Shown here: in pieces, positions 2,137 to 35,845 of the stretch
Position numbering within the stretch: the first letter of the stretch is position 1
Layout: every line of letters begins with the position of its first letter
DNA from: an uncultured Comamonadaceae bacterium
GTDB lineage: Bacteria > Pseudomonadota > Gammaproteobacteria > Burkholderiales > Burkholderiaceae
Direction of reading: 5' to 3'
DNA: 37,914 nucleotides
Assembly: GCA_946482115.1 (NCBI GenBank)
Contig: CAMLQP010000003.1
Location: 1 to 37,914 of the forward strand
Made by a program: the position numbers and the translations under genes
Notes under the pieces: generated by a model
What the model saw: the letters and a program-made list of their open reading frames with translations, nothing else
What the model was told of the DNA's origin: nothing
Databases searched by the model: none

Positions 2137-2382
2137 CCCCGCCTCCGGTGGCTGTTGTGCGTGACGAAGTGTATTGACGCTGGCGGCTGCCGGGGAACGT
2201 GAATAGTTGGACGACGCACAGGCGTCTGTACACCGGTGCCTGGGGCGCACACCCCCTTAAGAGGGATGGCCACGGCCGGCTGCCGCGGGCACAGTGCACC
2301 CCGGGCCGGCCGCGGTGGCGAGCTGTGCACGGTTAGCCGGTCGGGGCGACTCGATGGCGCCGGCCCACCCCGCCGAAGTCGG
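2137..2382. other. Non-coding gap between the lysis region and the membrane accessory gene
   Basis: These 246 bases contain no convincing gene. They hold one copy of the dispersed 16-bp palindrome (2216-2231). A weak leftward promoter could lie near 2165-2190, with TTCCCC, 18 bases and then TACACT on the minus strand, and would serve the membrane gene. No hairpin with a T tract is visible. This is the only sizeable non-coding DNA near the integrase, so it is a place to look for attP, although no core was recognised. Confidence 0.45.
2216..2231. repeat. Dispersed 16-bp palindrome, copy 1
   Basis: GCACAGGCGTCTGTAC matches the consensus GTRCAGRCGYCTGYAC at 15 of 16 positions. It is intergenic, about 80 bases upstream of the membrane gene start at 2136. 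Confidence 0.7.
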
Positions 2383-3042
2383 TCAAGCCGGGATCGGCCG
2401 CAGCACGCAGTAATAGCGGGCGCCGGGAACCTCCCGGCGCGCCACCTGCACCGACGACGCGCCGTTGGTGGCGCCGTTTTCCTGCCAGCTCAGGTTGACG
2501 CACGTCGGGCCCCACACGTGGGTGATGACGGCATCCCGTGCCGGACTCTCGTCCGCGGCGAAGAACGCGCACGGCTGGCCCAGCGCCGGCCCGGCGGCGA
2601 ACAGCTTCTGAGCTGCGACGAAAGCGCCGATGTCCGACCAGTCCGGCAGGTCCTGGTCCATGCCCTGGCAGGCGTCCCGCAGCACTTCCCAGCACGCGAC
2701 GAACGGGTGATCCACGTCAACCGACGCAATCACCATGATGCGGTCGTGCAGGTCCTGCGCCGGGAACGGCGCCAGGCTGGTCAGGCCCTTGCAGGCGGCG
2801 ACCAATTCGTCCGCCAGCACGTCCGCCTGGCGGGGGTCGTACGGGCCGCCGGCCTGGCCCCAGGCATCGGCGAACTCGTCGACGCCGAGCATGAGGCGGT
2901 AGGCGCGGTCCTGCGCGCGCAGCAGGCGCGCGCCCTCGGCCCGCATGGACTCGGCCATCTGGTCCACCTTGGCCTGCAGGTCGCTGGCGCTGAGCAGCAG
3001 CGCGGCCAGGGCGGCCGCATGCACGGAAACGGTGTACTTCAT
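2383..3042 (-). CDS. Hypothetical protein after the spanins
   Basis: A 219-residue protein of unknown function. The N-terminus (MKYTVSVHAAALAALLLSAS) is hydrophobic and could be a signal sequence or a single membrane anchor; an acidic helical region follows and then a mixed domain with several Cys and Trp residues. Start ATG 3042 has AAGGAG about ten bases upstream, and this ribosome site spans the stop codon of Rz, so translation is probably coupled to the lysis genes. Its place at the end of the lysis cassette suggests a late-expressed accessory protein. I do not recognise a family and assign no function. Confidence 0.7.
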   Translation of the reverse strand: MKYTVSVHAAALAALLLSASDLQAKVDQMAESMRAEGARLLRAQDRAYRLMLGVDEFADAWGQAGGPYDPRQADVLADELVAACKGLTSLAPFPAQDLHDRIMVIASVDVDHPFVACWEVLRDACQGMDQDLPDWSDIGAFVAAQKLFAAGPALGQPCAFFAADESPARDAVITHVWGPTCVNLSWQENGATNGASSVQVARREVPGARYYCVLRPIPA

Positions 3043-3049
3043 AGGTCTC

Positions 3050-3619
3050 TCACTCCTTCGGGGGGTTGTCGGCGCCGTGCAGGCGCCTCAGTTCGTCGCT
3101 GATGCGCTCGCAGCGGAGGCCTCGGCGGCGGGCTTCGTCAAACGCTGCAGCGAGTTCTTCCGCCTCGCCGTCAGCGCTTCGGTACAGGTCGGCGAGCACC
3201 AGGCCGGGGCCGGCTGCTGACGCGCTTCCTGCGGGAGTGCCGGGAGCTGCGCACGCTGCACTGGTGGCGGCGGCGAGTTCGTCGGCGAGCTGCTGCACGC
3301 GCTGGCGAGCAGCGCGCAGGTCAGCTGCAGCGCGAGCTGCAGCCGGAGCATCGGTTTGCGCATGGCGCACCTCCTGTTGGACGATGGATTGGCCGGCCTG
3401 CTCGACCTGGCGTTCCTGCCGCTCGGCCCGCACCCAGGCCTCCAGGCGGCGGGCCCGGTCGGCATCCCACATGGCCTGCACGGCCGCCCTGCCCTCGGCT
3501 TCGCGCCCGTCGCCGTAGCGGGACACTGCCCACCAGGCAGCGAGGCAGGCGGCAACGACGCCGGCGGCGGCGCACCAGGTGCGCAGCGGCACCAACTTCA
3601 CGGCGGCAAGGGAGATCAC
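3050..3619 (-). CDS. Rz: Rz-like inner-membrane spanin
   Basis: A 189-residue i-spanin. In this family a single N-terminal membrane anchor is followed by a periplasmic coiled coil that pairs with the lipoprotein Rz1 and fuses the inner and outer membranes in the last step of lysis. Here the anchor is near residues 14-33, followed by a long charged Ala/Arg/Glu-rich helix with Gln heptads, typical of the family. Start GTG 3619 overlaps the previous stop as GTGA and has GAGGAA upstream; a longer frame to 3991 is excluded because it would run across the upstream genes. The Rz1 gene lies entirely inside it in another frame, the classic Rz/Rz1 nesting. Confidence 0.85.
   Translation of the reverse strand: MISLAAVKLVPLRTWCAAAGVVAACLAAWWAVSRYGDGREAEGRAAVQAMWDADRARRLEAWVRAERQERQVEQAGQSIVQQEVRHAQTDAPAAARAAADLRAARQRVQQLADELAAATSAACAAPGTPAGSASAAGPGLVLADLYRSADGEAEELAAAFDEARRRGLRCERISDELRRLHGADNPPKE
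3088..3363 (-). CDS. Rz1: Rz1-like outer-membrane spanin lipoprotein, nested in Rz
   Basis: A 91-residue protein read in a different frame within Rz. It starts MRKPM, has a hydrophobic signal peptide (about 6-22) and a lipobox LLASAC with the modified cysteine at residue 23. A serine and proline-rich stretch with four consecutive prolines follows, typical of o-spanins. Start ATG 3363 has AGGAGG six bases upstream, much better than the longer frame to 3555. The mature lipoprotein should sit in the outer membrane and bind the C-terminus of Rz. The C-terminal half is long for an Rz1, but the signal, lipobox and nesting make the call firm. Confidence 0.85.
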   Translation of the reverse strand: MRKPMLRLQLALQLTCALLASACSSSPTNSPPPPVQRAQLPALPQEARQQPAPAWCSPTCTEALTARRKNSLQRLTKPAAEASAASASATN

Positions 3620-3828
3620 GGCGCTTCCTCTTTCTGCGGCACCAGGCGCTCGGCCACGGTGTCGTCGCCAGGCGCGGCGTCGAACTCGGCGGACCCGCTG
3701 TTGAGGGCGTGCTCCAGGCCGGCTGGATTGCCCTCGTAGCTGATAAGCAGGGTGTTTTGCAGCTCCTGCACCTGCTCGCCCCGGGCGATGCGGGCGCGGC
3801 CGCTGTGCACCACGACGGCCTTGCTCAT
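3616..3828 (-). CDS. Small hypothetical protein between endolysin and spanins
   Basis: A 70-residue soluble, acidic protein starting MSKAVVVHSG. Its start ATG 3828 overlaps the endolysin stop as ATGA, and its own stop overlaps the Rz start as GTGA, so it is translated inside the lysis operon. No membrane span, signal or known motif is visible. Position suggests a lysis-related role or a neutral small gene; function unknown. The longer frame upstream (to 3963) would lie inside the endolysin and is not used. Confidence 0.65.
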   Translation of the reverse strand: MSKAVVVHSGRARIARGEQVQELQNTLLISYEGNPAGLEHALNSGSAEFDAAPGDDTVAERLVPQKEEAP

Positions 3829-4901: not shown

Positions 4902-4910
4902 CGCGCCCCC

Positions 4911-4926
4911 GCACAGATGTCTGCAC
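4911..4926. repeat. Dispersed 16-bp palindrome, copy 2
   Basis: GCACAGATGTCTGCAC matches the consensus at 14 of 16 positions, with GATGTC in the centre. It lies in the short gap between the tail gene ending at 4930 and the first lysis gene starting at 4901. Confidence 0.6.
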
Positions 4927-8848: not shown

Positions 8849-11800
8849 TCAGGCCCGGAAGCCGATACGGCTGCTCGCGTCGAGCTTGCTTTGCGTGGAG
8901 GCCTCACGGGCCAGCTGGTTGCCGGCCTGCAGGGCTGCGCTGGTGGCTGTGGTGCCGGCCTTGACTGCCTCGATGTTCCGCTGCATCAGGCCCTCCATGG
9001 ACTCGCGCAGCGCCATCAACTCCTCCCACATGCCGTAAACCGCTTCCTTGTCGGCCGCGGCCCCGGTGCCGCCGCCGAAGTAGCTGTCCGACTCCCGCAG
9101 GAAGGAGTCTGCAGCGGACTGCCACGCGTCGAACGCCTCCCAATTGCCGGCCATGGCATCGGCATACAGGGCCGACAGGTTGTCGGATGCCAGCTCGTAT
9201 TGCTGCGTCGGATCGAGGTTAGAAAGATCACCCAGCTGCCAGTTGTTGGCCCAGTCGGTCATCGACTGCTCGATGCGGTCAAGCAGTTCCACCATGTCCA
9301 TCATCTGCTTGAGCTGGTCTTGCTCAGCACGCAGCTGCTCGGCGGCGGCAAGGTCCGCTTCACTCGGGCCGCGCGATTCGCTGTCGCCCCCACCGGCACC
9401 CATGCGCGCGCTTTCGCGCGCCTCAGCTTCGTTCTGCACACGGGCGTTCTCAAACACGTCCGTCTGCATCATGTACATGTTGAAGATGCCGCCTTGTGTC
9501 GGAACTGGGACGTTCTCCTTGCCGCCCCAATGACCGTCCACATAGTCCTGGAGGTTCTTGGGCAAAGTGCCGTTGTTCCAGTCCGATTCGAACGCGCCCA
9601 CGTGCGCTTCGAAACCTAGCCAGTCGCGATAAGCCTTGTCCGCTGCAGACGTCTGCGCTTGGCCGCGCAAGCGAATGCCGCCGAACTCCCGCGCCGCGGC
9701 GGCCGCCTCGTCCTTCAGGTCGGCCAGGCTGCCGGCCGCCCGCACCACGGCCAGCTCTGCCTCGCTGGCACCATCAGACAGGTTCACGAACGACGACGCG
9801 AAGGCCAGAATTTGGTCCTTGGTCGCGGCCTGCAGGGTGCCGACGTCGACCGTGATGCCCGCCAGCTCCTTCAGGTCCCGGATGATCATTCCGTACCGAT
9901 GGGTGAACTGCTCTTCGGGCTTCAGGAACTTCGGCAGCTCGCTGTCTATGGCGGCCTGCAGCTCCTGCATACGCGCCGCCTGCTCTGCGGCATCCGATGC
10001 GGCATAGATGCTCTGCTGCAGCGACACCAGCGCCGGGTCCAGCTTGCGCAGGGCCTCCAACTCGCGCTGGCGTTCCAGCGCAACGGCGCCAATCTCGTCG
10101 CCCTGGGCGCGCAGCAGCTGCACCTCGAGGTCGCCGCGCTTGTCCGCGATGGCCTCGCTGCGGGCCGCGACCACATCGAAGGCGTCGGCCACGCTCATCA
10201 ACGCGGCATAGTTGCGCCGGCCGGCCTCTGTTGACAGGTCCTGCGCTTCGACCAGGTCGCGGAAGGCCTCACGCGTGGCGGGCATCGTGGCGCCGTACTG
10301 AGCGAAGGCGTCGCGCACCGCCTGCGTCTGCAGCGCCGCACGCTCGGCCTCGGTGTAGTACTTGCCCAGGAAGTTGCCCGCCGCGCCTGCGAACTTGTCG
10401 AGCCCACCGAACATCTCGCCGAGCTGCACCGCGGCCTTGCCACCGTCGATGCTGGCGGCCAGGGCGCGCATGCCCAGGCTTTCCAGCACGCTGTTGACCT
10501 GCACGATGGCGCCGCCGACACGCGCAATGGTCTGAGCTGTCGTCTCACCGTAGATCGCCAGCGGCTTCACCTGGTCGGCGTAACCCGCGATTAGAGCGTC
10601 CCCATACTCGCCCAAGGCCTTCATGATCGAGGCCTTGTCCTTCTCCAGGTCGCCCGTCAACTGGACCTTGACGTCCTTGGTGATGCCGGCCATGAGCGAC
10701 GCCGGCAGGCCCAGCGCTTCGCCGTACTTCTTGGCCTGATCGTGCACGGACCGGGCGGCGTCGTCGAAGAACGCGTCGATGGTGCTGTCGAGCGTGTCGG
10801 CCACGGTGTAGCGCTTGTCCGACCGGAAGAGGCCGCCCTTTTCCAGCACGTCAGCGTACGCCTCGCCGCTGAAGGCGCCGCCGCTGAAGGTTCCGAGCAC
10901 GCCGCGACCCTGAACACGCGGCTCCGCGCGCCCGAACATATGGTTCCAGCGGACGGAGCCCGAGAGGATCTCGCTCCACTTTTCGCTCATGCCGAGCGAT
11001 TCGAAGAGCTTCAGGTTGACGGCCTTGTCTGAGTAGTCATACCAGCTCTTCCCCTCCAGCTGCTTTGAGCCCGTAAAGCCCTCGCCGTACAGCTTGCTCG
11101 CATACTGAGCGGCCGCGTAGATCATCGCGGCATAGGCCGCATAGGCACCCCAGGCGCCCATGGTGGAGCTGCCGCCGCCGCTGGCGCCTGCAGCACCGCT
11201 GCCGGCGGCCACGCCCTCGCCCGCGGCCGCGGCGCCCAGCGAGTTGCCAGCAGCCACACCACCCCAGGAGTTGTTGGCCGCGATCAGCGCGCCGAGGCCG
11301 TCGCCGCCGGCGGCGCCGACGGCGTTGGCGTACGCCAGCGAGACGCTGGACGCGCCCGCCGTGGTGCCAGCGCCCATGAAGCCCGCCAGCGCGTTGACGC
11401 CGCTGGAGTAGCCGGTGGCCGCGCTGTACATGCTGTTGAGGGTGCTCAGGTTGTTGAGCCCCGCGGCCACGCCGGCGCCGGCTCCCCCACCACCACCGCC
11501 TGCGCCGCCGGTAAGGAATGCCGCGATTGCCCCGGAGATCGGTGACACCACGGCCTGGATGATCGGACGCAGAACCATGCTGCGGAACAGGCCCTTCAGG
11601 TACTCGCCAGCGCTGCGCCCGCCTTCCATGAGCGCGTCCGCCAGCGCCTGGCCGGTTTGGTCGGCCAGGCGCTGCCAGTCGTCGGCCGCGGCCTTGGCGG
11701 CCGCCTCGTTCGCGTCGCGCACCTCTTGGCGGCGCATCAGGCCGATCAGCTCGCGCTGGGCGTTGATCTCGCGCTGCTTCGCCTCGTACAGCGTGGCGCC

Positions 11801-13435
11801 GGCGCGCAGGCCGGCCTGCTCGTCCAACAGGCGCTGCAGCGTCACCTCGGCGATTTGTGAGCGCAGCATGCCGTGGGTTTGGTACTCCAGGCGGGCCGCG
11901 CGCACGGCTTCCTCGGCGCCGCGCGCGGCCTGCAGCGCCCGCTCCTGCTCGCTCGCAATGTGAGCGTCCGCCGCTTCGCTGTCGCGACGGCGCACGTCGG
12001 CACGCGCTTCGGCCTCTGCGGTGGCTTTCTTCATCGCGGTGGCCAGGTCTTCCTCGGCCTTGATCTGCTCGATGAGGTTGACCAGCGCCTGCTTCTCCGC
12101 GTCGGTCAGGCGCACGCGCCCGTCCCGCAGGGCCTCCATGGCGTCGAGCGCGAACTTCTGCCCGGCGGTCAGCTGTTCGCCCAGTTCGCGCTCCTGGCGC
12201 AGCACCTGCAGGCGGGCCGTGGCGTCGCTCAGCAGCTTGCGCCCGGCATCCGTCTGTGCCTTGGTGGTGTCCTTGGTGGCGCCGCTGAACTTGAGCTGCG
12301 ACTGCGTCGCGGCCCCCAGCCGAGCATCGAGGCGGGCCGTCTCGGCTGCTGCCTCCTTCGTGCTGATGCCGTACTGCGCGACGATGCGCGAGGCCTCGGC
12401 CATGCGCGCCGTCGCGCCGAGCACCTTGGCCTGGTACTCGTCCAGCGCTTTGCGGGCGGCCTCCGCGTCATCCACCAACGCCTCACGGATGGCCATGAAG
12501 CCCCTGAAATCCAGGCTGAGCAGCGCGGCGATCTGCGCCGCCATGCCACCCACGTCACGGCCAATGCCCTTGATCACGAACATCACGTCAGCGCCGAGGG
12601 ACATGATGGTTTCCAGCACCGTGCCAAGCACCTGCGCGGACGTGCTCATGCCCGCCAGCTGCCCGCCTGTGGCCTCGGCGGCGCCGTCGACCGCGCCAAG
12701 CAAGGCCGTCAGCTCGGTGACCACCTGCAGCATCTGCAGGAGGGTGGGAAGCAGGCTGTTCGCAGCGACACGCTGCAGGGCCACCAGCTGGCCCATGAGC
12801 AGCGTGACGCCGTCATTGAACTGGTCCGCCGCCTGGGCCTGCTCTGTGGTGGTGGTGGCCACCAGCTCGTTCGCGCTGGCCAGGTCCTTCAGGAACGGCA
12901 GCAGATCGGCCCCGCTCTTGCCCAGCAGCGTCATCGCGACGGCGGACTTTCCGGTTCCGTCCTCGAACTTGCCCATGGCCTTGGCCAGCTCCACCAGCTG
13001 ATCGTCGGCCTTCAGCTGCTTGAAGCTCTCGATGTCCAGGCCAAGGGCCGCCAGGGCCGCGCCTGCCCCCTTCGACTCATCGTCGACCCCGGCCAGGGAC
13101 TTGGCCAGGCGGTTGGTCGCCGCTGCAATGGTGTCGGCGCTGGTGTCGGTTGTGCGGCCGATCTCGACCAGCGCAGACAGCCGCTCCACCGTCATGCCGG
13201 TCTTGATGGACAGGTCGTTCAGCGCCTCGGCGGCATCGATGGACCCCTTGATCATGCCGACGAAGGCGCCCACCGTGAGGCCCGAGGCAATGCCGGCAAG
13301 CGCGCCCCTCGCGAACTCGGCCGCCGCGCCCATGCGGGCGCTGGCACGCTCCACCAGGTCCTGCGCCTCGTCAAGCTGCTTCCTCAGGCGGACGATCTCC
13401 GCCAGCATCTGGATTTCGATTTGTCCAGCGATCAT
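8849..13435 (-). CDS. Tail tape measure protein
   Basis: A 1528-residue tape measure protein, which sets tail length and is ejected through the tail during infection. The first 120 residues show the typical start of such proteins, including a coiled coil and the phrase IKTGMTVERLSALVEIGR. Long Ala/Glu/Arg-rich helical stretches follow (about 380-600), then a Gly-rich hydrophobic segment (about 610-780) that could insert in the membrane, then a long helical C-terminus. By the family rule of roughly 0.15 nm per residue, the tail would be about 230 nm long (inference). Start ATG 13435 overlaps the chaperone stop as ATGA. It contains one copy of the dispersed palindrome. Confidence 0.93.
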   Translation of the reverse strand: MIAGQIEIQMLAEIVRLRKQLDEAQDLVERASARMGAAAEFARGALAGIASGLTVGAFVGMIKGSIDAAEALNDLSIKTGMTVERLSALVEIGRTTDTSADTIAAATNRLAKSLAGVDDESKGAGAALAALGLDIESFKQLKADDQLVELAKAMGKFEDGTGKSAVAMTLLGKSGADLLPFLKDLASANELVATTTTEQAQAADQFNDGVTLLMGQLVALQRVAANSLLPTLLQMLQVVTELTALLGAVDGAAEATGGQLAGMSTSAQVLGTVLETIMSLGADVMFVIKGIGRDVGGMAAQIAALLSLDFRGFMAIREALVDDAEAARKALDEYQAKVLGATARMAEASRIVAQYGISTKEAAAETARLDARLGAATQSQLKFSGATKDTTKAQTDAGRKLLSDATARLQVLRQERELGEQLTAGQKFALDAMEALRDGRVRLTDAEKQALVNLIEQIKAEEDLATAMKKATAEAEARADVRRRDSEAADAHIASEQERALQAARGAEEAVRAARLEYQTHGMLRSQIAEVTLQRLLDEQAGLRAGATLYEAKQREINAQRELIGLMRRQEVRDANEAAAKAAADDWQRLADQTGQALADALMEGGRSAGEYLKGLFRSMVLRPIIQAVVSPISGAIAAFLTGGAGGGGGGAGAGVAAGLNNLSTLNSMYSAATGYSSGVNALAGFMGAGTTAGASSVSLAYANAVGAAGGDGLGALIAANNSWGGVAAGNSLGAAAAGEGVAAGSGAAGASGGGSSTMGAWGAYAAYAAMIYAAAQYASKLYGEGFTGSKQLEGKSWYDYSDKAVNLKLFESLGMSEKWSEILSGSVRWNHMFGRAEPRVQGRGVLGTFSGGAFSGEAYADVLEKGGLFRSDKRYTVADTLDSTIDAFFDDAARSVHDQAKKYGEALGLPASLMAGITKDVKVQLTGDLEKDKASIMKALGEYGDALIAGYADQVKPLAIYGETTAQTIARVGGAIVQVNSVLESLGMRALAASIDGGKAAVQLGEMFGGLDKFAGAAGNFLGKYYTEAERAALQTQAVRDAFAQYGATMPATREAFRDLVEAQDLSTEAGRRNYAALMSVADAFDVVAARSEAIADKRGDLEVQLLRAQGDEIGAVALERQRELEALRKLDPALVSLQQSIYAASDAAEQAARMQELQAAIDSELPKFLKPEEQFTHRYGMIIRDLKELAGITVDVGTLQAATKDQILAFASSFVNLSDGASEAELAVVRAAGSLADLKDEAAAAAREFGGIRLRGQAQTSAADKAYRDWLGFEAHVGAFESDWNNGTLPKNLQDYVDGHWGGKENVPVPTQGGIFNMYMMQTDVFENARVQNEAEARESARMGAGGGDSESRGPSEADLAAAEQLRAEQDQLKQMMDMVELLDRIEQSMTDWANNWQLGDLSNLDPTQQYELASDNLSALYADAMAGNWEAFDAWQSAADSFLRESDSYFGGGTGAAADKEAVYGMWEELMALRESMEGLMQRNIEAVKAGTTATSAALQAGNQLAREASTQSKLDASSRIGFRA
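9643..9658. repeat. Dispersed 16-bp palindrome, copy 3 (inside the tape measure gene)
   Basis: CTGCAGACGTCTGCGC matches the consensus at 14 of 16 positions and has a perfect central TGCAGACGTCTGC core. On the coding strand it is read as AQTSAA. Confidence 0.6.
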
Positions 13436-13950
13436 TGCTCTTGTCCCTCGCGCAGGCGCCGACGCCTGGCTTTGCGGTTGGCCAAGGCCGCGGCCTTGGC
13501 TTCCTGCTTGGCGATGAGTCCGTCCAGCAGCGCGCGGAATCCGGCGTCAACGGCTTGCCGGTTCGTTTCCTCGTCGGGCACCCAGGGCGCCTTTGCCGCG
13601 GGGCTGGCCGCGGCGTGCGTCTCGCTGACGTACTCGCGCGACAGGCGGCGCAGGGTCTGCACTTCCCAGGGCCACAGCGCCAGGCCGGTCTGCTCCTGCC
13701 ACGCCTGCAGCTCCTGATAGCTCACCGGCACGGCGCCCATGCCTGTACCCGTCGCAGGACCCACCTCCAGCAGGTAGTCCAGCAGGTAGCGGCCACCATC
13801 AGGCAGCGGCGGCATGGGCGGCGGGCCAGCCTTCTTCGACCGGCTGGCCAGGCGCGACTTGCCGCGCTGCCCGCGGCCACGCTGTACAGGCGTCTGCAAA
13901 TAGGCCATGTGCCGGACGTAGACGCTCAGGTCGTCGGCGAGGCCGGCGAA
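13432..13950 (-). CDS. Tail assembly chaperone, downstream (T-like) frame reached by -1 frameshift
   Basis: This frame ends at TGA 13432 and is open from above the slippery site. Its first ATG is at 13908 (MAYLQTPVQR, 158 residues), but no good ribosome site precedes that ATG. The 14 codons before it, read from 13950 (FAGLADDLSVYVRH), look like ordinary protein. A -1 shift at 13956-13950 therefore adds 172 residues to the first 141 residues of the upstream product, making a 313-residue fusion. The segment is basic at both ends. In lambda the equivalent GT fusion recruits tail tube subunits to the tape measure. It lies directly before the tape measure gene, as expected. Confidence 0.8.
   Translation of the reverse strand, partial: FAGLADDLSVYVRHMAYLQTPVQRGRGQRGKSRLASRSKKAGPPPMPPLPDGGRYLLDYLLEVGPATGTGMGAVPVSYQELQAWQEQTGLALWPWEVQTLRRLSREYVSETHAAASPAAKAPWVPDEETNRQAVDAGFRALLDGLIAKQEAKAAALANRKARRRRLREGQEQ
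13884..13899. repeat. Dispersed 16-bp palindrome, copy 4 (inside the tail chaperone gene)
   Basis: GTACAGGCGTCTGCAA matches the consensus at 15 of 16 positions. On the coding strand it is read as LQTPVQ, close to the first ATG of the T-like frame. Confidence 0.65.
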
Positions 13951-15631: not shown

Positions 15632-16060
15632 CTACAGCGGTTCGCGGTAGGTGACCATGAAGTCGGTGGGCTCGATGGTCAGGTCGTTGGCGGTGTTCGG
15701 TGCCTCCGGGCTGCTCATCGCGGCGCTGACGCTGGAGCCTTCGAAGCCAGCCAGCGTGCCCTGCTTGTTGCCACAGGCCTGGCGGATGTGTTGCAGCAGC
15801 GTCTTGCCCACCACGTAGCCGCCGGCGGCCGGGCTGGGATAGAGGCCTGCGACGCGCATGCGGGCCCGGCACAGGGCAAAGCCGCCAGGCTTTGGCTTCA
15901 GCGGGCGGTGCAGCTGCTGCGCGTCGATGCGCTTGACGACGACGCACGGCACCGGCGCGCCATCCGGCGCCATGCCGGGATGCACGCCGTCTGCGCCCAC
16001 CAGCTCGGTAACGCCTGCATGCTCGCGCAGCAGGTGGATGAGGATTTGCTCGGGGATCAA
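15632..16060 (-). CDS. Tail completion protein, DUF3168-like
   Basis: A 142-residue protein with the features of DUF3168 tail completion proteins: a short N-terminal helix (PEQILIHLLREHAGVTELVG), then GVHPGMAPDGAPVPCVVVKRI, and a C-terminal strand ending DFMVTYREPL. In HK97 and SPP1-like phages this protein caps the head-proximal end of the tail. Start ATG 16060 overlaps the end of the upstream gene by four bases. It is the last gene before the hairpin that precedes the tail tube. Confidence 0.8.
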   Translation of the reverse strand: MIPEQILIHLLREHAGVTELVGADGVHPGMAPDGAPVPCVVVKRIDAQQLHRPLKPKPGGFALCRARMRVAGLYPSPAAGGYVVGKTLLQHIRQACGNKQGTLAGFEGSSVSAAMSSPEAPNTANDLTIEPTDFMVTYREPL

Positions 16061-16614
16061 TCAGCGCTCCCTGTGTCGGGCACATTGATGCCGTGCTTGC
16101 TGGCCAGGCGCTTGCGCACGTAGGCGGCCACGGCGCGCACCGCCTGGTCCGTGCCCTGGTCGAACGCTGGCTCCATGTACGGGTGCGGCTGGGCGCCTGG
16201 GTGCTGGACCTGCGTCACCACCCAGCCGCCGCTGCTGTTGCCGCCGATGTCCAGCGCGCGCGCGGAGACGATGCGGATGGTGTGGGGCTTCGTGCCCTTC
16301 TCCACCCAATTCGCGTAATAGGCGTCCGCCGACCCTACCCTGCCGCCGGCCACCACGCGCGCCGTGACGCGCCCGTTTTTCAACGACACGCGAACCCGGA
16401 TGGAATCCCGAAGCAGGCCGCGGCGCCCGCCGTACAGACGTCTGTTCTTTTCGCTGGGCTCGGCCTCGGGCGCCATCGTCCGCGCCAGGTCGGCATAGAC
16501 GCGCACGCCGGCGCGCAGGGCGCCGCGCATCACGTTCGCCTCCAGGCGGGCCGGCAGCGTGTCCAGCGCCTGCTGCAGCGCGGCCAGGCCCTTCACGCTC
16601 TTGGCGTCAGCCAT
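16057..16614 (-). CDS. HK97 gp10-like neck/tail completion protein
   Basis: A 185-residue protein of the HK97 gp10 type. The typical order is visible: a helix (KGLAALQQALDTLPARLEANVMRGALRAG), then APEAEPSEKNRRLYGGRRGLLRDSIRV, then YYANWVEKGTKPHTIR, the conserved GT-containing turn, and HPYMEPAFDQ near the end. These proteins join the tail to the head connector. The gene contains one copy of the dispersed palindrome, read as NRRLY. Start ATG 16614 overlaps the upstream gene by eight bases. Confidence 0.85.
   Translation of the reverse strand: MADAKSVKGLAALQQALDTLPARLEANVMRGALRAGVRVYADLARTMAPEAEPSEKNRRLYGGRRGLLRDSIRVRVSLKNGRVTARVVAGGRVGSADAYYANWVEKGTKPHTIRIVSARALDIGGNSSGGWVVTQVQHPGAQPHPYMEPAFDQGTDQAVRAVAAYVRKRLASKHGINVPDTGSAD
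16432..16447. repeat. Dispersed 16-bp palindrome, copy 5 (inside the gp10-like gene)
   Basis: GTACAGACGTCTGTTC matches the consensus at 15 of 16 positions. The coding strand reads it as NRRLY. Confidence 0.65.
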
Positions 16615-21743: not shown

Positions 21744-22097
21744 TCAGCCCAGCGCGGCCAGCTCGTCGAAGCGAGCCTTCAACGCGGCCAGCTTCGCGTC
21801 CAGCGCGGCCGCGGTGGCCTCGTCCGTGGCCTTGGCCTTCAGGTCATCGAGCTGGGCGGCCTCGATGCGCAGCGCGTCCATTTCGGCCTGGCGCTGTTCG
21901 GCCGCCACCGTAATGGCGCTGCGAACGACCTGCGCGCCCTGCTGCCTGGCGTAGGCCACGGCTTCCTTGTGCGGATCGACGGAGCCGTCCTTGGCAAGCT
22001 GCTTGATCAGCTCCGCGTCGGCTTCCAGGACTTGGCCTGCCTTCAGGCCATGGGCGCCCACGTCACACAGGACGCGAGCAAATGCGAGCTTGGACAT
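21744..22097 (-). CDS. Hypothetical head-region protein
   Basis: A 117-residue protein starting MSKLAFARVLCDVGAHGL, with a long Ala/Lys/Asp-rich helix at the C-terminus (about 60-117) that is probably a coiled coil. It follows the major capsid gene by 86 bases (22098-22183), a gap that holds a perfect copy of the dispersed palindrome. Position suggests a head accessory or decoration protein; the family was not recognised. Start ATG 22097 is the only good one. Confidence 0.65.
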   Translation of the reverse strand: MSKLAFARVLCDVGAHGLKAGQVLEADAELIKQLAKDGSVDPHKEAVAYARQQGAQVVRSAITVAAEQRQAEMDALRIEAAQLDDLKAKATDEATAAALDAKLAALKARFDELAALG

Positions 22098-22145: not shown

Positions 22146-22161
22146 GTGCAGGCGTCTGCAC
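22146..22161. repeat. Dispersed 16-bp palindrome, copy 6 (perfect match)
   Basis: GTGCAGGCGTCTGCAC, 16 of 16 to the consensus, in the gap between the capsid gene (ends 22184) and the next gene (starts 22097). Confidence 0.75.
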
Positions 22162-23525: not shown

Positions 23526-24299
23526 CTACGCGATCTGCAAGCGCTCGATCAGCTGCAGGCGCTGCAGCTGGCGGGCGCGGTGGTCTTGGTCGGCCTGGCT
23601 GGCCGCGGGCGGCTGTGCAGGCGTCTGCACGGGCTTGCGGTCCATCAGGTATGCGTTCAGCTTCCAGTCAGGGGCCTGGGCGGACGGCGCGGCGCCGGTG
23701 ATGGCGATGCTGTCGGCGAAGCCGGCATCCACCGCCTCTTCGGCCGTGAACCAGGTCTCTGCCTCGCACCACTGCCGCACCTGGTCCAGGTCAGCGCCGG
23801 TCTTCCGGACGTACTCGGCGTACATGGACGAGTCGCACTTGTTCAGCAGCTCGATCAGCGCGGCGAAGTCCTGGGCGTTCCCCCAGCCCATCGTCCACGA
23901 CTGATGGACCATGAACTTCGAGTTGGAGGTGATCAGCACCTCGTCGGCGTTCGAGGTGATCACGGTCGCCGCGCTGGCCGCAAGGCCCTCGATCTGGGCG
24001 ACCACGTGCGCGCTTTGCTCACGGATGGCCTGGCAGAAGGCCTCGGCAGCGAACACGTCGCCGCCGGGACAGTTGACGTACAGGCGGATCTTCTCGGCCT
24101 CGATCGCGCGGAACGCGGGCACGAAGTCCTGCGGGCACACGCCGCCCCACCACTCCGCGGTCATCCGGTCAGCGACGATCGGGTCGTACAGGTACACCGC
24201 CACCTCGCTGGAGGCCTCGGCGCGCACGATGCGCGACTCGATGGGAGTGAAGGCCCGGCGGTTGTCAGCCAGCAGTTGCATCAGGCGATTGCGGCGCAT
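23526..24299 (-). CDS. ClpP-like head maturation protease
   Basis: A 257-residue S14/ClpP-type protease that should cut the capsid delta domain during head maturation. Ser109 in EGLAASAATVI and His132 in SKFMVHQSW are the catalytic pair. Where ClpP has Asp before the conserved W-F-x-A-E-E-A segment, this protein has Glu181 (AETWFTAEEA). The C-terminus (about 205-257) is a Pro/Gln-rich linker and helix; the dispersed palindrome encodes VQTPA in it. Start ATG 24299 has AGAGGA five bases upstream and lies inside the portal end by 35 bases; ATG 24281 is possible. The order portal, protease, capsid is standard. Confidence 0.9.
   Translation of the reverse strand: MRRNRLMQLLADNRRAFTPIESRIVRAEASSEVAVYLYDPIVADRMTAEWWGGVCPQDFVPAFRAIEAEKIRLYVNCPGGDVFAAEAFCQAIREQSAHVVAQIEGLAASAATVITSNADEVLITSNSKFMVHQSWTMGWGNAQDFAALIELLNKCDSSMYAEYVRKTGADLDQVRQWCEAETWFTAEEAVDAGFADSIAITGAAPSAQAPDWKLNAYLMDRKPVQTPAQPPAASQADQDHRARQLQRLQLIERLQIA
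23615..23630. repeat. Dispersed 16-bp palindrome, copy 7 (perfect match, inside the protease gene)
   Basis: GTGCAGGCGTCTGCAC, 16 of 16. The coding strand reads VQTPA in the C-terminal linker of the protease. Confidence 0.75.
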
Positions 24300-29383: not shown

Positions 29384-32116
29384 TCAGAACGGGATCGCAT
29401 CAGGGTCCTCTACGGTTTGGCCCTGCGTCGGGCCGGGTGCGACTGGTGATCCAGGGCTGCCGCTCGCTGGGGGCGGGCGGTCCGAGGCCTTCGGCCGCAC
29501 GTACACGCGCGGCCTGCCGGGAAGGCTGGTGCGGCGCACCTCCCAGCCCAGCATGTGCATGACGGCGCCGGCCTTCTTGATGACGGCGTCGGTCTGCTTG
29601 TCGATGGTGAAGCCGATGCGGGACAGCAGCTCGCTCATGCCGATCTCCGACACCAGCGAGCCATTCACTCCCTGGTGCGGGACCTTCTGGTCTTCGTCGT
29701 ACAGGTAGTGCCTGATCGCGGCCTCGATGCCGCTTTCCATCGAGCGGGCCTTTTGCTGCGGGTCGAACAGCTCTCGCTGTTCCTTCGCGCTCGGCCAGAA
29801 CGGTTCGTTGCGGTCCAGGCAGTCGATGGCCTCGGCGAACAGCTGGTCGACGTTCTCCCGCAGCCAGTCCACGTCGAGCCGGCGCGTGATGCGCACCGGC
29901 CAGAAGCGCCGGTTGCCCGTGGTGTCGCTCAGGTAGTGCGATTCGTTCGTCGTGCCGACGAACACCACCTGGCGCGGGTAGTCCCGCGGCCGCCTGTCGA
30001 AGCTGGCCCGGAACCGGTCCTTCGACGAACTGATGAAGGACTTGACCTTCGTCACCTCCTGGCGGGACATGCTGTCCAGCTCGCCCCACTCGTACACCCG
30101 AATACCCTGGATGTTCTGGTACGAGTCTTTTTCGCCCAGCGTCAGACCCGTGTCGGCGAAGTACTCGCCGCCCAGCACCTTGGCCACGGTGGACTTTCCG
30201 TAGCCCTGCGGCCCCTCCAGGATGAGCATGTAATCGAACTTGGTGCCGGGCCCGCGCACGATGTCGGCGCCGCGCTTTTCGGGCGGTAGAACCCGGCAGC
30301 ACATGGCCATGATGAACCACTTGCCGGCCAGCGCCAGATAGCGGTACAGGTCGCGCACATCGGGCCGCGAATCGTCGTCGTCCCACTCATCCTCTTCCAG
30401 GCAGCACCGCCGAAGCCACGTCTCCAGCCGCTTGGTGCCGTCCCAGGTGTTGCGGCAGGCCTCCAGCTGCTCGCGCACCGGGTGATAGGCGTGCAGGTGA
30501 GCGACCATCAGCACGGCCTGTTCCAGCTGCTCGCGCGGCATGCTGGGCAGGCCATGCTCACGCACCAGCCACTGGCCCATCAGCAGCTCGTCGCACTCTT
30601 CCCAGGGCCCGGCATCCGTGCCCCAGGGGGTTGCCTTCAGCTTGTCCACGTTGTTCGTGAACTGGTTGAAGGCAATGATGCCCACCGCCTCAGGCACGCC
30701 GGCGATGTTGCGGTCCGGCCAGCCGTCCAGCGCCAGGACCACGTTCTCGCGCACCGGCTTGATGCTGCCCGTGCTCGACAGGATGAGGTGCTTCCGCCAT
30801 GGCGCCTCGCCAGCATCCTCGGCCGGCGCCTCATCCCCACCAGCTGCGGGAGCCCTGGAACGCGCGATTTTTTCGCCAGCACCGTTCAGGCCCGCCGCCG
30901 CGCGCACCGAGTCATCCGGCGGGACGAAAGGCGCAGCTGCGCGGATGTAGTCGCGCACCTGGTCAGCCGTCCAGCCATCGTCGATCGCGTCGGCAATATC
31001 CCAGCCGTCGCGCACGTCGCCCGGCTTCGGGATGTTGACGCGGAACACCGTACACGCCTGGTCCTTGACCAGCTGCGTGCCGATGCCAGCCATGGCCGCA
31101 TTGCCCGGCTGCAGCGGCTCGGGAAGCAGCGGCTTCGATTCCGGGTCGATCCCGCGCTCACGCTCTTCGCGTGATAGGCGTTTGCGCTTCGCGTCGCAGT
31201 CCGGCCACAGGTAGACCGTGCGGTTCATGAGCCATGCCCAACTGGCCATGGCCCAGGCCTTGGCGCCGCCTGGCCAGCTCACGAAATCGAACTCGTGCCC
31301 GAGCAGCTTGTGCCCGGCCTCGGCGCACTTCTCGCCCTCCACGATCACGACGGGCAGGGACAGGTCCGCGGAAAGCAGCGTGGCGGGCACGTACAGCGGG
31401 CGCGGCGCCTCCCACTGCTTCCAATGCCATTTCATGGTGCGCCGGCCATCGGACTCGTCCACGCACCAGGTGAGCGGCAGGGTGTCCTTCGTCACCTCAC
31501 CCGCGGAGTTGAAGCGCTCGAAGCGCGCCACGTAGCCGTAGCGCGTGCCCTCGAACACGTACTCCCACGTGCGCACCGCCTGCAAGCGCACGTAGGTGTC
31601 CGTCTTCTTGTCCCGGAAGCCCCATTCGAAGACCGGTGCGGGAACCTTCGCTGGCACCGGGACCAGCGCCCGCCACATGCTGCGCCGCTTCACCCCCGCC
31701 GGCGCCGGCGTGTCGGGCAGGGGCTCATCGAGCCAGGGCGGCATGCTGTCGTCCTGCGGCTCCGCGCCGGCCGAGCTGCGGCGTGCAGGCGTCTGCACGG
31801 GCGTGCTGCCCGCGCGGTCCCAGCCCATGTCTTGCATCAGCTCGCGCGCGGCCTGGCCATTGTTCAGGCCGCGAATGCGCGCGTACAGGCTGATGAGGTC
31901 GCCGCCCTTGTCCTCATCGGGCGCGGCGTTGTCGATCCATTGGCCGGTCTGCAGGTTGACGTTCGCGCTCTCGCCGGGCGAGCCGTCGAAGTCGCCCACA
32001 TACCAGCGGCCGTTGCGCTCGATGCCGGCCGGCAGCCACTGCGGCACCAGGTGGTGCGCCTGGTCGAGCAGTGCAGCGGCCAGCCGTGGAAAGTCAATCG
32101 GCGTGCGGTCAGCCAT
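29384..32116 (-). CDS. Primase-helicase: Toprim-like primase with VapE-type ATPase
   Basis: A 910-residue replication protein. The N-terminal part has GGDLISLYARIRGL (about 70-90); a Toprim-like core has VVIVEGEKCAEAGHKLLG near 255 and LWPDCDAKR near 303. The C-terminal half is a VapE-type superfamily ATPase: Walker A GPQGYGKST near 635, an acidic Walker B-like EWGELDS near 680, sensor VVFVGTTNESHYL near 715 and arginine finger GNRRFWPV. It should prime and unwind phage DNA. The linker near residue 108 carries a copy of the dispersed palindrome, read as VQTPA. Start ATG 32116 has CAGGA upstream, partly held in a hairpin. No other replication protein is visible. Confidence 0.9.
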   Translation of the reverse strand: MADRTPIDFPRLAAALLDQAHHLVPQWLPAGIERNGRWYVGDFDGSPGESANVNLQTGQWIDNAAPDEDKGGDLISLYARIRGLNNGQAARELMQDMGWDRAGSTPVQTPARRSSAGAEPQDDSMPPWLDEPLPDTPAPAGVKRRSMWRALVPVPAKVPAPVFEWGFRDKKTDTYVRLQAVRTWEYVFEGTRYGYVARFERFNSAGEVTKDTLPLTWCVDESDGRRTMKWHWKQWEAPRPLYVPATLLSADLSLPVVIVEGEKCAEAGHKLLGHEFDFVSWPGGAKAWAMASWAWLMNRTVYLWPDCDAKRKRLSREERERGIDPESKPLLPEPLQPGNAAMAGIGTQLVKDQACTVFRVNIPKPGDVRDGWDIADAIDDGWTADQVRDYIRAAAPFVPPDDSVRAAAGLNGAGEKIARSRAPAAGGDEAPAEDAGEAPWRKHLILSSTGSIKPVRENVVLALDGWPDRNIAGVPEAVGIIAFNQFTNNVDKLKATPWGTDAGPWEECDELLMGQWLVREHGLPSMPREQLEQAVLMVAHLHAYHPVREQLEACRNTWDGTKRLETWLRRCCLEEDEWDDDDSRPDVRDLYRYLALAGKWFIMAMCCRVLPPEKRGADIVRGPGTKFDYMLILEGPQGYGKSTVAKVLGGEYFADTGLTLGEKDSYQNIQGIRVYEWGELDSMSRQEVTKVKSFISSSKDRFRASFDRRPRDYPRQVVFVGTTNESHYLSDTTGNRRFWPVRITRRLDVDWLRENVDQLFAEAIDCLDRNEPFWPSAKEQRELFDPQQKARSMESGIEAAIRHYLYDEDQKVPHQGVNGSLVSEIGMSELLSRIGFTIDKQTDAVIKKAGAVMHMLGWEVRRTSLPGRPRVYVRPKASDRPPPASGSPGSPVAPGPTQGQTVEDPDAIPF
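31783..31798. repeat. Dispersed 16-bp palindrome, copy 8 (perfect match, inside the primase gene)
   Basis: GTGCAGGCGTCTGCAC, 16 of 16. The coding strand reads VQTPA in a linker before the Toprim-like domain. Confidence 0.75.
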
Positions 32117-32480: not shown

Positions 32481-32785
32481 GTCGGCGTCCCTCGCGACGA
32501 GGGGGCGTCCAGCCCTGCAACCCAGTCAAACACCTTCCTCGCCCACGGCAGCGGCCCGCGATAGTCGTTCCCCACGAACTCCTGCGCCGCCTTGAGCACA
32601 TCAGCTGGCGGCTGGGTGCCGGCCTCGATGGCACGCCGCACCCCCTGAAGGGCGGACAGCGCGGCCGAACGTGCGATGTCCGCCTTGCTGGCACTCTGAT
32701 GGTTCGCGGCGTCGGTGACGCACATGGCGTATTCATTCACCCGGGCGCGGATCGCGGCCCACTGCTCATCCGTCAGCCTAGCCAT
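32477..32785 (-). CDS. Small hypothetical helical protein
   Basis: A 102-residue protein starting MARLTDEQWAAIRARVNEY, mostly helical, with Ala and Ser-rich repeats (HQSASKADIARSAALSALQGVRRAIEAGTQ). ATG 32785 overlaps the CII stop as TGATG; GTG 32788 is one codon earlier. No known family recognised. It is in the early leftward operon with CII, so an early regulatory or replication role is possible. Confidence 0.6.
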   Translation of the reverse strand: MARLTDEQWAAIRARVNEYAMCVTDAANHQSASKADIARSAALSALQGVRRAIEAGTQPPADVLKAAQEFVGNDYRGPLPWARKVFDWVAGLDAPSSRGTPT

Positions 32786-33267
32786 CACGCCACCGCCTGC
32801 AGCGCCGCCCGCTGCTGCTGATCCTTGCCCGCGGTGTTGATCGCACGGACCTCTGCCAGCACGGCCTGCACGGCGCCCAGCAGCTCGCCGCCCTCGCGCT
32901 CGATGCGTTCACGCTCGTTGTCACTGATCTGGCCATCGGCAAGACCAGCAGCGCAAGCGCCCATCAGTTCACCGAACTCGCGCGCCAAGGTTGCAATGCG
33001 CGCGGCCGCAGACTCGGCCCCTGGCACGCTCGCTGCCAGCGGCACCACCATGCAGCCCAGCTCGGCAGCGAAGGCATTGAGCACTTGCCGATCACCCGTC
33101 CAGCCGCTCAGCTTCACCGCGTCGAGCAGTCCCAGCTTTGCAGTCGGATAGCTCGGGCTTACCTCGTGGCTCAACGTGGCGCCCGACTTGCCCACTACGG
33201 GCCCGAGTGCATTGGCTCCGCCCGGCCAATCGTGGACCAGTCGGAATGCCGCCATGCTCACATCCAT
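32785..33267 (-). CDS. CII-type regulatory protein (P2/CP76 family)
   Basis: A 160-residue protein of the phage CII/CP76 family. The pattern FRLVHDWPGGANALGPVVGKSGATLSHEVSPSYPTAKLGLLDAVKLSGWTG at the N-terminus is characteristic, and a long acidic helix follows (REFGELMGACAAGLADGQISDNERERIEREGGELL). Members are transcription regulators of the lysis-lysogeny choice or of early genes. I chose ATG 33267, with AGGTGG upstream; GTG 33276 and ATG 33255 are alternatives. A perfect 11-base inverted repeat lies 28 bases upstream. Confidence 0.8.
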   Translation of the reverse strand: MDVSMAAFRLVHDWPGGANALGPVVGKSGATLSHEVSPSYPTAKLGLLDAVKLSGWTGDRQVLNAFAAELGCMVVPLAASVPGAESAAARIATLAREFGELMGACAAGLADGQISDNERERIEREGGELLGAVQAVLAEVRAINTAGKDQQQRAALQAVA

Positions 33268-33294
33268 TGCGACCACCTTTCTGCGGCGGCGTCA

Positions 33295-33321: not shown

Positions 33322-33463
33322 GGCGCCTCGCCGCGCATTTGACGAAGATCAGTCCTAGCGCAATACATGCGCGGCAGGAAGAACGGTCAAGTGAACTGTG
33401 CCGATACGTCGCATTCGCGACACGGCGCAATTCAATCGATTCAACGCAACCACTCGATTCAAT

Positions 33464-33989: not shown

Positions 33990-33995
33990 CGAAGC

Positions 33996-34028
33996 AGTGT
34001 AAATCAGCTTACAGTTAATCTGCAAGGC
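33996..34028 (-). promoter_or_regulatory. Leftward lytic promoter with operator 1
   Basis: On the minus strand TTGCAG (34028-34023), an 18-base spacer and TACACT (34001-33996). The spacer and -10 contain the operator TGTAA-N6-TTACA (33998-34013). About 29 bases here match, in inverted orientation, the rightward promoter at 34858-34886, which supports both. Repressor or Cro binding would block RNA polymerase. The predicted start coincides with the cro ATG. Confidence 0.7.
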
Positions 34029-34037
34029 AGCTTTCGG

Positions 34038-34849: not shown

Positions 34850-34857
34850 AAGCAGGC

Positions 34858-34886
34858 TTGCAGTTGACTGTAAGCTGATTTACAGT
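34858..34886 (+). promoter_or_regulatory. Rightward promoter with operator 2
   Basis: TTGCAG (34858-34863), 17 bases, then TACAGT (34881-34886); the operator TGTAAGCTGATTTACA at 34869-34884 is the exact reverse complement of operator 1. Transcription would start near 34893, ahead of the gene at 34916. It should be repressed in the lysogen together with the leftward promoter. Confidence 0.7.
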
Positions 34887-34915
34887 GCGCCCCGTCACCC
34901 TGACGGGAGCGCACT

Positions 34916-34931
34916 GTGCAGACGCCTACAC
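34916..34931. repeat. Dispersed 16-bp palindrome, copy 9 (overlaps a GTG start)
   Basis: GTGCAGACGCCTACAC matches the consensus at 15 of 16 positions. It begins exactly at the GTG start codon of the first rightward gene and is read as MQTPT. Confidence 0.7.
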
Positions 34932-35212
34932 CGAGGGCCTCGAACCCTCACCCCAGCCGGAAAGCGCCAAAGTGCGTCGATTGCCGGCATTTCCAGGCTT
35001 GGCAGCTCGATAGCCGAGTCCCCACGACGCCGATGACCATCGGCGGATGCACGCACCCGGCCGCTCCGGTGTGCCTGGTCACCGGCGTGCCCAACGAGCC
35101 GGCACTCGTCATGCGGCGCCTGGGTTGCGACGCGGCAAATCGCCTCAGCCGCACCGCGTGCGGCCCCGCCGGCAACCTGTTCGAAGCCCGCACTGAGGAG
35201 CGGCAAGCATGA
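34916..35212 (+). CDS. Small cysteine-rich protein, first gene of the rightward operon
   Basis: A 98-residue protein. CVDCRHF (residues 20-26), GGCTHP, PVCLVTG, LGCDAA and RTACGP place seven cysteines in a pattern that suggests a zinc-binding fold. Start GTG 34916 has GGGAG upstream. The start codon is also the first base triplet of a dispersed palindrome copy (MQTPTP). Its end overlaps the next gene as ATGA. Function unknown; a small early host-interaction protein is possible. Confidence 0.65.
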   Translation: MQTPTPRASNPHPSRKAPKCVDCRHFQAWQLDSRVPTTPMTIGGCTHPAAPVCLVTGVPNEPALVMRRLGCDAANRLSRTACGPAGNLFEARTEERQA

Positions 35213-35445
35213 CGCCGCTGCAGATCGCGGGCGCCTGCATCGCCGTCTGCCTGGGTGGCACCTGGCTGGCTTGCGCGCTGATGGCGCGGGCCGATCGCCG
35301 AGGCGAAAGTGCGCCGCCGGCGGACATTGAAGACCCTTGCCCCATCACCGGCGGGCAGCTGGTGATGGCCGCCATCGCGGTGGCGCTGGCCTGCCTGGTC
35401 AGCTCGGTGTTCCCCATGGGCTTCGCGCCGGGGATGCCGTCATGA
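35209..35445 (+). CDS. Small membrane protein
   Basis: A 78-residue protein with two membrane spans (about 5-27 and 48-68), separated by a short charged loop (MARADRRGESAPPADIEDP). ATGA overlaps at both ends couple it to its neighbours. Function unknown. Confidence 0.65.
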   Translation: MTPLQIAGACIAVCLGGTWLACALMARADRRGESAPPADIEDPCPITGGQLVMAAIAVALACLVSSVFPMGFAPGMPS

Positions 35446-35651
35446 GCCGCCCGCGCACCGCCCTGCAGGCCGCGCGGGAAGCCCTGATGCCCGGCCCGCA
35501 CCACCCGAACGCCTTCGACCTGGTCACGCGCATCGACGCGTTCGAGCGCCACGTGTACCTGCGCGGCTGGGTGCACGGCTGCACTTGGGGCGCGGCGATC
35601 GCCGGCGGATCGGTGTCCATCGGCCTGCTGCTGATCTTCCTGGCGGGCTGA
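35442..35651 (+). CDS. Small protein with a C-terminal membrane helix
   Basis: A 69-residue protein: a basic soluble N-terminal part (RPRTALQAAREALMPGPHHP, then DLVTRIDAFERHVYLRGWVHG) and one membrane span at the C-terminus (AAIAGGSVSIGLLLIFLAG). ATG 35442 overlaps the previous stop; the longer frame to 35337 is rejected. It may pair with the preceding membrane protein. Function unknown. Confidence 0.6.
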   Translation: MSRPRTALQAAREALMPGPHHPNAFDLVTRIDAFERHVYLRGWVHGCTWGAAIAGGSVSIGLLLIFLAG

Positions 35652-35653
35652 CC

Positions 35654-35845
35654 ATGGGCGCCGCCGCTCGCCGGCTGTGCAGACGCCTGCACGCCGCCAT
35701 GCTGTACACGCGCGTGGCCCAGCTGCGCGTGGCCGCCTCTGCCGTGCGGTGCACCACCGCGGCGGAGTGCGTCTACCAGGCCCAGCTGCTCGCCCGCGCC
35801 TCCGTCGCGCGGTGCGAGCTGGCCGCGCTGGAGGCCCGGCAGTGA
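35654..35845 (+). CDS. Very small basic protein
   Basis: A 63-residue Ala/Arg-rich helical protein with four Cys residues (MGAAARRLCRRLHAAML). It starts two bases after the previous gene and overlaps the next as GTGA. A perfect copy of the dispersed palindrome encodes CRRLH in its N-terminus. It may be a real small protein or a bridging frame; confidence is limited. Confidence 0.5.
   Translation: MGAAARRLCRRLHAAMLYTRVAQLRVAASAVRCTTAAECVYQAQLLARASVARCELAALEARQ
35677..35692. repeat. Dispersed 16-bp palindrome, copy 10 (perfect match)
   Basis: GTGCAGACGCCTGCAC, 16 of 16 (reverse orientation of copies 6-8). It is read as CRRLH in the small basic protein. Confidence 0.75.

Follow-up and report, generated by a model that had tools for sequence, protein, structure and literature searches.

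A 16-bp palindrome dispersed over a temperate phage of an uncultured Comamonadaceae bacterium as a candidate parS-like loading site of a phage-encoded ParB clamp

The 37,914-nucleotide contig CAMLQP010000003.1 of an uncultured Comamonadaceae bacterium (assembly GCA_946482115.1), analysed here over its whole length and referred to as the window, belongs to a temperate tailed phage with a G+C content of 68% and HK97-type head genes among its phage genes. A 16-bp near-palindrome, GTRCAGRCGYCTGYAC, recurs about ten times in this contig, both between genes and inside them, which raises the question of what recognises the word and why a phage genome would carry it so often. Judging from comparative sequence evidence, the word is likely a parS-like loading site of an orphan ParB clamp encoded by the phages themselves, in an arrangement resembling that of KorB on plasmid RK2; that the phage ParB binds the predicted sites is very likely. 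Proteins of the ParB type recognise a short palindrome, close into a clamp with cytidine triphosphate (CTP), and slide along DNA.

The abundance of the word is far beyond chance. At up to two mismatches, the window holds ten copies, with 0.41 expected from 100 dinucleotide-preserving shuffles; at up to one mismatch there are 8 against 0.02 expected from such shuffles, and at up to three mismatches 11 against 3.54 (again 100 shuffles). Four copies, at 22146, 23615, 31783 and 35677, match the word in its IUPAC form exactly. The recount thus reproduces the preliminary description of this DNA, which listed ten copies, four of them exact, and judged them too numerous for chance. A stricter form, GTGCA-N-R-CG-Y-N-TGCAC with at most one mismatch, retrieves the five best copies (22146, 23615, 31783, 34916 and 35677), while it occurs on average 0.03 times in 30 mononucleotide shuffles and once in the window read backwards. 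The other five copies are more degenerate, and some of them may be chance matches. Four of the ten copies (2216, 4911, 22146 and 34916) are intergenic, compared with 6.5% non-coding DNA (binomial p = 0.0027); three had been claimed before, and the gene model used here first gave five, until 35677 was moved to coding DNA, in the small open reading frame (ORF) 35654-35845.

The search for a binder of the word points to one gene family. Contigs chosen by the window word alone encode a particular ParB in 22 of 38 cases (20 of 36 without the query donors G001 and G003), and contigs chosen by a related palindrome, GTGCACACGTGTGCAC, do so in 25 of 34. None of the eight contigs carrying the reversed word encodes it, compared with 47 of 72 word-bearing contigs (Fisher 5e-4). 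These sets comprise 38 of the 73 listed contigs with the window word (at least 18.9 kb, with 35 shorter ones and stretches L081-L120 set aside), 34 of 48 distinct contigs with GTGCACACGTGTGCAC, and, for the reversed word, 8 of 13, both of these sets being limited to contigs of at least 19 kb. In the whole viral collection, the reversed word occurs in 13 stretches, the palindromic dialect in 65, and the window word in at least 120. A weak ParB match (3.4e-18) was seen in 1 of 18 terminase relatives chosen without regard to the word, and another weak one in Burkholderia phage KS9 (2.4e-12). Primase relatives with the window word encode ParB in four of four cases (G008, G009, G014 and G015), and tblastn located ParB relatives in many word-bearing contigs. 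The comparison of contigs shows that word-carrying phages tend to encode one particular ParB family. Cultured phages gave no megablast match to the window or to one G001 stretch, and the sole match in a search of genome contigs with the terminase was a distant Butyrivibrio locus.

The protein itself has the features of a ParB. Variovorax phage VarioGold (VG_p35) and Acidovorax phage Aval (gp06c) each encode a ParB-family protein with PF02195 and PF17762. The N-terminal domain PF02195 scores 80.6 bits (cut-off 26.3) in these relatives of the window phage, not in the window, and the helix-turn-helix (HTH) domain PF17762 scores 60.1 bits in VarioGold ParB. The KorB domain PF08535 reaches 17.6 bits in VarioGold ParB, below its cut-off of 22.3, and was not found in Aval ParB. 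Among PDB sequences, VarioGold ParB matches ParB, Spo0J, Noc and KorB, with a best E value of 1.9e-32. An AlphaFold2 model of the ParB from contig G001 (pLDDT 79.5 on average, and above 90 for most of the first 300 residues) is nearest to ParB and Noc structures, DNA complexes included, with KorB structures 8qa8 and 8qa9 further down. The ParB box motifs GxRR and ENxxR are represented by G71, R74, E105, N106 and R109, which are invariant in 42 sequences.

Downstream of the HTH, four cysteines form a putative metal site. All four are invariant in a nine-sequence alignment, and the four-cysteine pattern is present in 78 of 80 loci; alignment A2, with 42 of 75 sequences, was picked for the last two cysteines of the motif, which are therefore invariant there by choice. 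The motif lies about 250-280 residues into the protein (L191-L270), and a long, variable C-terminal part was observed. The nine-sequence alignment retrieved 427 relatives in viral contigs, and the best 80 of these 427 constitute the ParB loci discussed below. A screen of 50,697 cultured-phage records yielded only three with 80% or more coverage of the N-terminal 330 residues of VarioGold ParB, namely VarioGold, Aval and one uncultured faecal record. ParA (PF13614) was detected in none of 28 ParB-bearing records and in 14 of 14 control genomes, with other ATPase families outside the search and some records possibly being fragments. The N-terminal ParA-binding motif was likewise found in none of the 80 ParB proteins, within their first 120 residues.

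Comparison across these phages also established the window word as the dialect of one lineage within a family of 16-bp palindromes whose centres are lineage-specific. The VarioGold dialect is GTGCAGACGTCTGCAC, with near copies, and the Aval dialect is GTGCACACGTGTGCAC; each phage has five strong sites (one of those in Aval lying in parB), while shuffles give approximately none and the backwards sequence none. The shared frame GTGCA-N6-TGCAC occurs 123 times in the 80 ParB stretches (1.24 Mb), compared with a mean of 3.0 and a maximum of 26 for 59 other permutations of the arms. At least one copy is present in 61 of the 80 loci and at least two in 40, and none was found in 18 stretches of terminase relatives (0.22 Mb). 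Unsupervised clustering of palindromes also ranked the GTGCA...TGCAC family first in 39 of 82 sequences (the 80 loci plus VarioGold and Aval). The ParB loci, counted over 79 of them with L193 left out, have 63 sites outside parB; 32 of these are situated 1 to 3 kb upstream of that gene, and 25 of the 63 are intergenic, compared with 12.8% non-coding DNA (p = 8e-8, uncorrected for kinship). HTH residues that vary by dialect, for example at VarioGold positions 191 and 193, were discarded as evidence, being confounded with lineage.

Some observations on individual sites may be added. In VarioGold (L189:31899) and Aval (L190:7662), a small early gene some 1.3-1.6 kb upstream of parB has a site close to its 5′ end. 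These early genes are unlike each other, and the sites are read there as VHTSA and SAHVCT. The SAHVCT reading recurs in 13 of 38 coding sites outside parB in the ParB loci.

The variety of the palindromes bears on the idea that the word acts as RNA, as a hairpin with a 6-bp stem and a 4-base loop serving as a processing or antitermination signal. The window word could indeed fold as GUGCAG-N4-CUGCAC from either strand. Hybrid sites (GTGCACACGTCTGCAC or its complement), which make up 40 of the 123 GTGCA-N6-TGCAC copies, are mismatched at the sixth stem pair, and a hairpin leaves the link to a gene for a DNA clamp unexplained, which renders this explanation very improbable.

Many loci also have a site within parB itself. 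In 79 loci, 41 sites lie inside parB, over the codons for [S/G]-[A/P]-D-V-C-T of the cysteine motif, and codon choice there follows the DNA word. Serine is encoded by AGT in 40 of 41 cases, glycine by GGT in 23 of 26, alanine by GCA in 52 of 60 and proline by CCA in 8 of 11, while these codons account for 6%, 10%, 13% and 12%, respectively, elsewhere in parB genes. With one gene per 60%-identity cluster (25 clusters), the counts are AGT 12/13, GGT 6/9, GCA 16/20 and CCA 1/3; the codon analysis omitted 4 of the 80 loci, which lacked the cysteine pattern. The dispersed sites of G001 and L192 have the window centre GGCGTC or its complement, and in the parB of these two the aspartate codon GAC is replaced by the glycine codon GGC, so that the residue again tracks the word. 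The valine codon varies together with the dialect of the dispersed sites: GTG is found in 19 C-type and 2 G-type loci, and GTC or ATC in 1 C-type and 9 G-type loci (p = 2.5e-5, with 11 of 42 mixed or other loci dropped).

These features also help in weighing a different binder, namely another phage regulator such as a CI/Cro-like repressor or a CII-like activator, for which the word would be an operator spread over the genome in the manner of stoperators. The word is palindromic, dispersed and often intergenic, as such an operator could be, and the window, like several relatives with the word, has a CII-like gene. This explanation is nevertheless improbable, given that the word is common to phages (G002 and G003) which, over the parts compared, are otherwise little related to the window, that it tracks one ParB family, and that a site is embedded in parB. 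The stoperators of cluster A mycobacteriophages are asymmetric, keep a fixed orientation to transcription and are bound by the immunity repressor; the phage dialects described here, unlike them, include perfect palindromes, and site orientation to transcription is mixed in G001.

The primase gene illustrates how the DNA word is kept while the protein changes. The window primase reads the site as VQTPA at residue 107 of a linker; the G001 and G004 primases, about 56-60% identical to it, read VQASA at this same linker, in an unchanged frame and over the reverse complement of the word. Eleven other homologues were compared, and the linker carries the word, in either orientation, in 7 of the 9 in which it can be aligned (in L162 and L163 the region is absent or unalignable). 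Five of them (L156, L157, L159, L164 and L165) read QASA, QTPA or QTSA with one to three mismatches, and since L157 and L165 look like one sequence, four are distinct beyond G001 and G004. The two linkers without the word (L158 and L160) belong to contigs G010 and G012, which have neither the word nor ParB. The codons used at the primase site are rare in window genes, with TCT making up 3% of serine, CCT 8% of proline and GCA 9% of alanine codons. Additionally, the LCRRLH reading of copy 35677 recurs where small ORFs of G001 and L192 hold the word; kinship between these ORFs and that of the window is seen in the word alone.

It is therefore well supported that the word is selected as DNA, with protein sequence following, as had been proposed at the outset. 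The opposite pattern, homologues keeping the QTPA residues with different codons, had been named as one that would speak against this proposal; the residues vary (QTPA, QASA, QTSA) and the word stays. A DNA site can thus be maintained within unrelated reading frames, and short peptides such as VQTPA, VQASA and SADVCT track the DNA.

The same comparison leaves little room for a self-inserting mobile mini-palindrome of the RPE/REP type, which the preliminary description had also considered. The word is short, repeated and situated within linkers, as such an element would be. Around 129 exact copies in viral contigs, though, no flanking base exceeds about 50%, so the flanks are not conserved; moreover, the same primase linker is occupied in relatives, some positions are common to distant phages, and the centre varies by lineage. 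This origin is scarcely credible.

Several observations weigh against the proposed link between word and ParB. The window itself contains no parB. Among the word-bearing contigs, 25 of 72 were without this ParB, and a ParB_N search of these 25 added one protein (G092); the reversed-word control set is small, with eight contigs. The frame GTGCA-N6-TGCAC is missing from 19 of the 80 ParB loci, the unsupervised clustering favours the family in just those 39 sequences, Aval not among them, and the agreement between valine codon and dialect rests on 7 independent clusters (p = 0.048). Furthermore, contig G089 (IMGVR_UViG_3300034152_000419; 76.8 kb) carries eight distinct copies of GTGCACACGTGTGCAC and has no ParB_N match; its G+C content is about 50% in the pieces examined (stretches L308, L309, L352, L353, L364 and L367), and its sites are perhaps served by another binder. 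In some contigs ParB goes unseen because of where the contig stops: that of G006 starts about 3 kb left of its CII gene, short of the expected parB position. No such cause is evident for G089.

Contig G089 would also fit a reading in which a chromosomal protein of the host binds the word, or in which the word is a highly iterated host palindrome carried along by phages, and so would the presence of the exact word in several phages of little kinship. Fourteen plasmid records (10.3 Mb, eight of them betaproteobacterial), a weak stand-in for the host chromosome, gave no match in searches for the exact word or with up to one mismatch, and the dialects differ between phages of two Comamonadaceae hosts. 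A candidate host group of Polaromonas, Rhodoferax, Cupriavidus and Methylibium was dropped, their replicons having given no copy. A host site is thus highly improbable, and the earlier suggestion of an iterated palindrome shared with the host found no support in these records. The broader suggestion that the word binds a host or phage protein is well supported, and the evidence points to the phage-encoded ParB.

The ten sites of the window are distributed as follows.
22146..22161 (+): GTGCAGGCGTCTGCAC, strong; 22 bp 3′ of the gene for the major head protein and ahead of the following gene (start at 22097)
23615..23630 (+): GTGCAGGCGTCTGCAC, strong; within the gene for the head protease (23526-24299), at residue 224 of 257, read VQTPA
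31783..31798 (+): strong; over the VQTPA codons of the N-terminal linker in the VapE-type primase gene
34916..34931 (+): GTGCAGACGCCTACAC; immunity/early region, between genes according to the gene model used
35677..35692 (+): GTGCAGACGCCTGCAC, strong; in the small ORF, read LCRRLH
2216..2231 (+): GCACAGGCGTCTGTAC, weaker; between genes
4911..4926 (+): GCACAGATGTCTGCAC, weaker; within an intergenic gap of 28 bp
9643..9658 (+): CTGCAGACGTCTGCGC, weaker; inside an ORF of 1528 aa that resembles a tape-measure gene in size and position
13884..13899 (+): GTACAGGCGTCTGCAA, weaker; close to the 5′ end of gene 13432-13908
16432..16447 (+): GTACAGACGTCTGTTC, weaker; inside the tail completion/neck gene 16057-16614

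A site follows the major capsid gene at 22 bp in the window, 30 bp in VarioGold and 8 bp in Aval, in differing dialects; such a position was rejected as a general rule, G001 having no site there. In G001, a site is found at the protease/capsid-gene junction (17752). All seven window copies with a GGCGTC or GACGCC centre (2216, 13884, 22146, 23615, 31783, 34916 and 35677) show GACGCC on the strand that encodes the genes around them. The rule this suggests, that asymmetric sites keep one orientation to transcription (seven of seven here), was discarded on the mixed orientations of G001. The strong sites of the window and G001 are all hybrids of an A-half and a G-half (GACGCC or GGCGTC), with no perfect palindromes among them. 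Directly 5′ of copy 34916 lies a strong inverted repeat, GTGCGCCCCGTCACCCTGACGGGAGCGCAC (34885-34914), which resembles a terminator stem without a T-run.

The position of parB in relatives suggests where that of the window phage would be found, and the following genes of the window are relevant here.
68-1678: integrase, serine-recombinase-type
29384..32116 (-): primase/helicase gene (VapE-type), carrying a site; PHROG DNA primase/helicase
32785-33267: CII-like regulator
36993..37571 (+): deoxynucleoside monophosphate (dNMP) kinase gene, shortly upstream of parB in relatives
37571..37914 (+): ORF truncated by the contig end, with parB expected just past it

In the relative G009 (L198), the kinase match spans 9036-9551 and the ParB match starts at 10007, about 0.45 kb further on; G008 is consistent with this, as 437 bp separate its kinase match from one contig end and its ParB match starts 579 from the other. 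In the window, the contig breaks off at 37914, within the ORF that follows the kinase gene (end at 37571). The parB of the window phage is thus predicted just beyond the contig end, because relatives carry it there in synteny. An attempt to reach it by wrapping around the contig ends was abandoned, as there is no direct terminal repeat and the joined reading meets a stop. The contig seems to be missing the segment that would connect the dNMP-kinase region with the integrase.

If the phage ParB acts in this way, it is fairly likely, by analogy with ParB, Noc, KorB and VirB, that it loads at the sites with CTP and slides. Clamps loaded at the sites would coat several stretches of the phage genome, and this coating would either control phage transcription or mark and organise phage DNA. 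With sites spaced over a genome of 36-40 kb, the clamps could reach most phage promoters or coat most of the DNA. Such action would probably take place early after induction or early in the lytic programme, because parB lies in an early operon with the dNMP kinase gene. Regulation or anti-silencing is tentatively favoured as the main role, with DNA organisation or marking a less probable second choice. Partition of an extrachromosomal prophage is the least likely, because no ParA was detected and the window phage, VarioGold and Aval have integrases. Packaging or condensation, named in the preliminary description as what the word might signal, could follow from ParB binding.

Known systems offer partial parallels. 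KorB is a ParB-fold CTP clamp that silences RK2 promoters from distant sites, and it has 12 binding sites on one mobile genome (PMC11790492), similarly to what is proposed here; the predicted fold of the phage ParB also matches 8qa8 and 8qa9. RK2 differs in being a plasmid with a ParA-type partner, IncC (PMC3235114), in its site sequence, and in the KorB domain, for which VarioGold ParB stays below the cut-off. VirB, a ParB-like clamp acting on transcription, loads at virS sites to counter silencing (PMC10770331); virS lies upstream of promoters, whereas the phage sites are many, dispersed and often in coding DNA. Dispersed centromere-like sites are known from N15, RK2 and pSM19035 (PMC3235114). 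Phages N15 and RedRock also have a ParB with more than one site, but they have ParA and are kept as plasmids, N15 as a linear prophage and RedRock without an integrase (PMC3235114, PMC7157519), unlike the phages described here, which have integrases and no detected ParA. Chromosomal ParB–parS and Noc–NBS share the 16-bp site length (PMC8494293).

Like these systems, the phage proteins combine ParB_N with an HTH, and the site lies inside or adjoins parB. A comparable placement is reportedly seen in B. subtilis, where a parS site is situated in or next to spo0J. The phage proteins depart from them in being phage-borne, in lacking a detected ParA and the ParA-binding motif, in the additional cysteine motif and long C-terminus, and in sites spread across a phage genome.

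A 2025 PNAS survey of orphan phage ParB proteins (PMC12704722) describes ParB-fold proteins outside parAB operons; its available text deals with folds, nucleotides and fusions, not with dispersed sites on phage genomes. No characterised phage with ParB alone was known to the authors of a 2023 article (PMC10286716), and the VarioGold paper (PMC9658991) mentions the ParB domain, with palindromes, repeats and operators absent in a word search of its text. In the open-access literature, with most subscription papers and preprints outside its scope, the word itself was not found in print, nor, in the texts available, was a report of a site for the orphan ParB of an integrating phage or of dispersed parS-like sites.

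ParB-like phage genes without ParA were known; a predicted site, its dialects and two named phages now make their binding testable. In a tentative generalisation, widespread integrating phages may carry about 5 to 10 ParB sites per genome, part of them within reading frames, from which a ParA-less ParB-CTP clamp would coat the entire phage chromosome as a genome-wide switch or self-mark, with a private dialect in each lineage. If this is true, phages would mark their own DNA against host silencers or SMC-type defence, or for replication and packaging, and the private dialects would keep co-resident prophages from cross-reacting.

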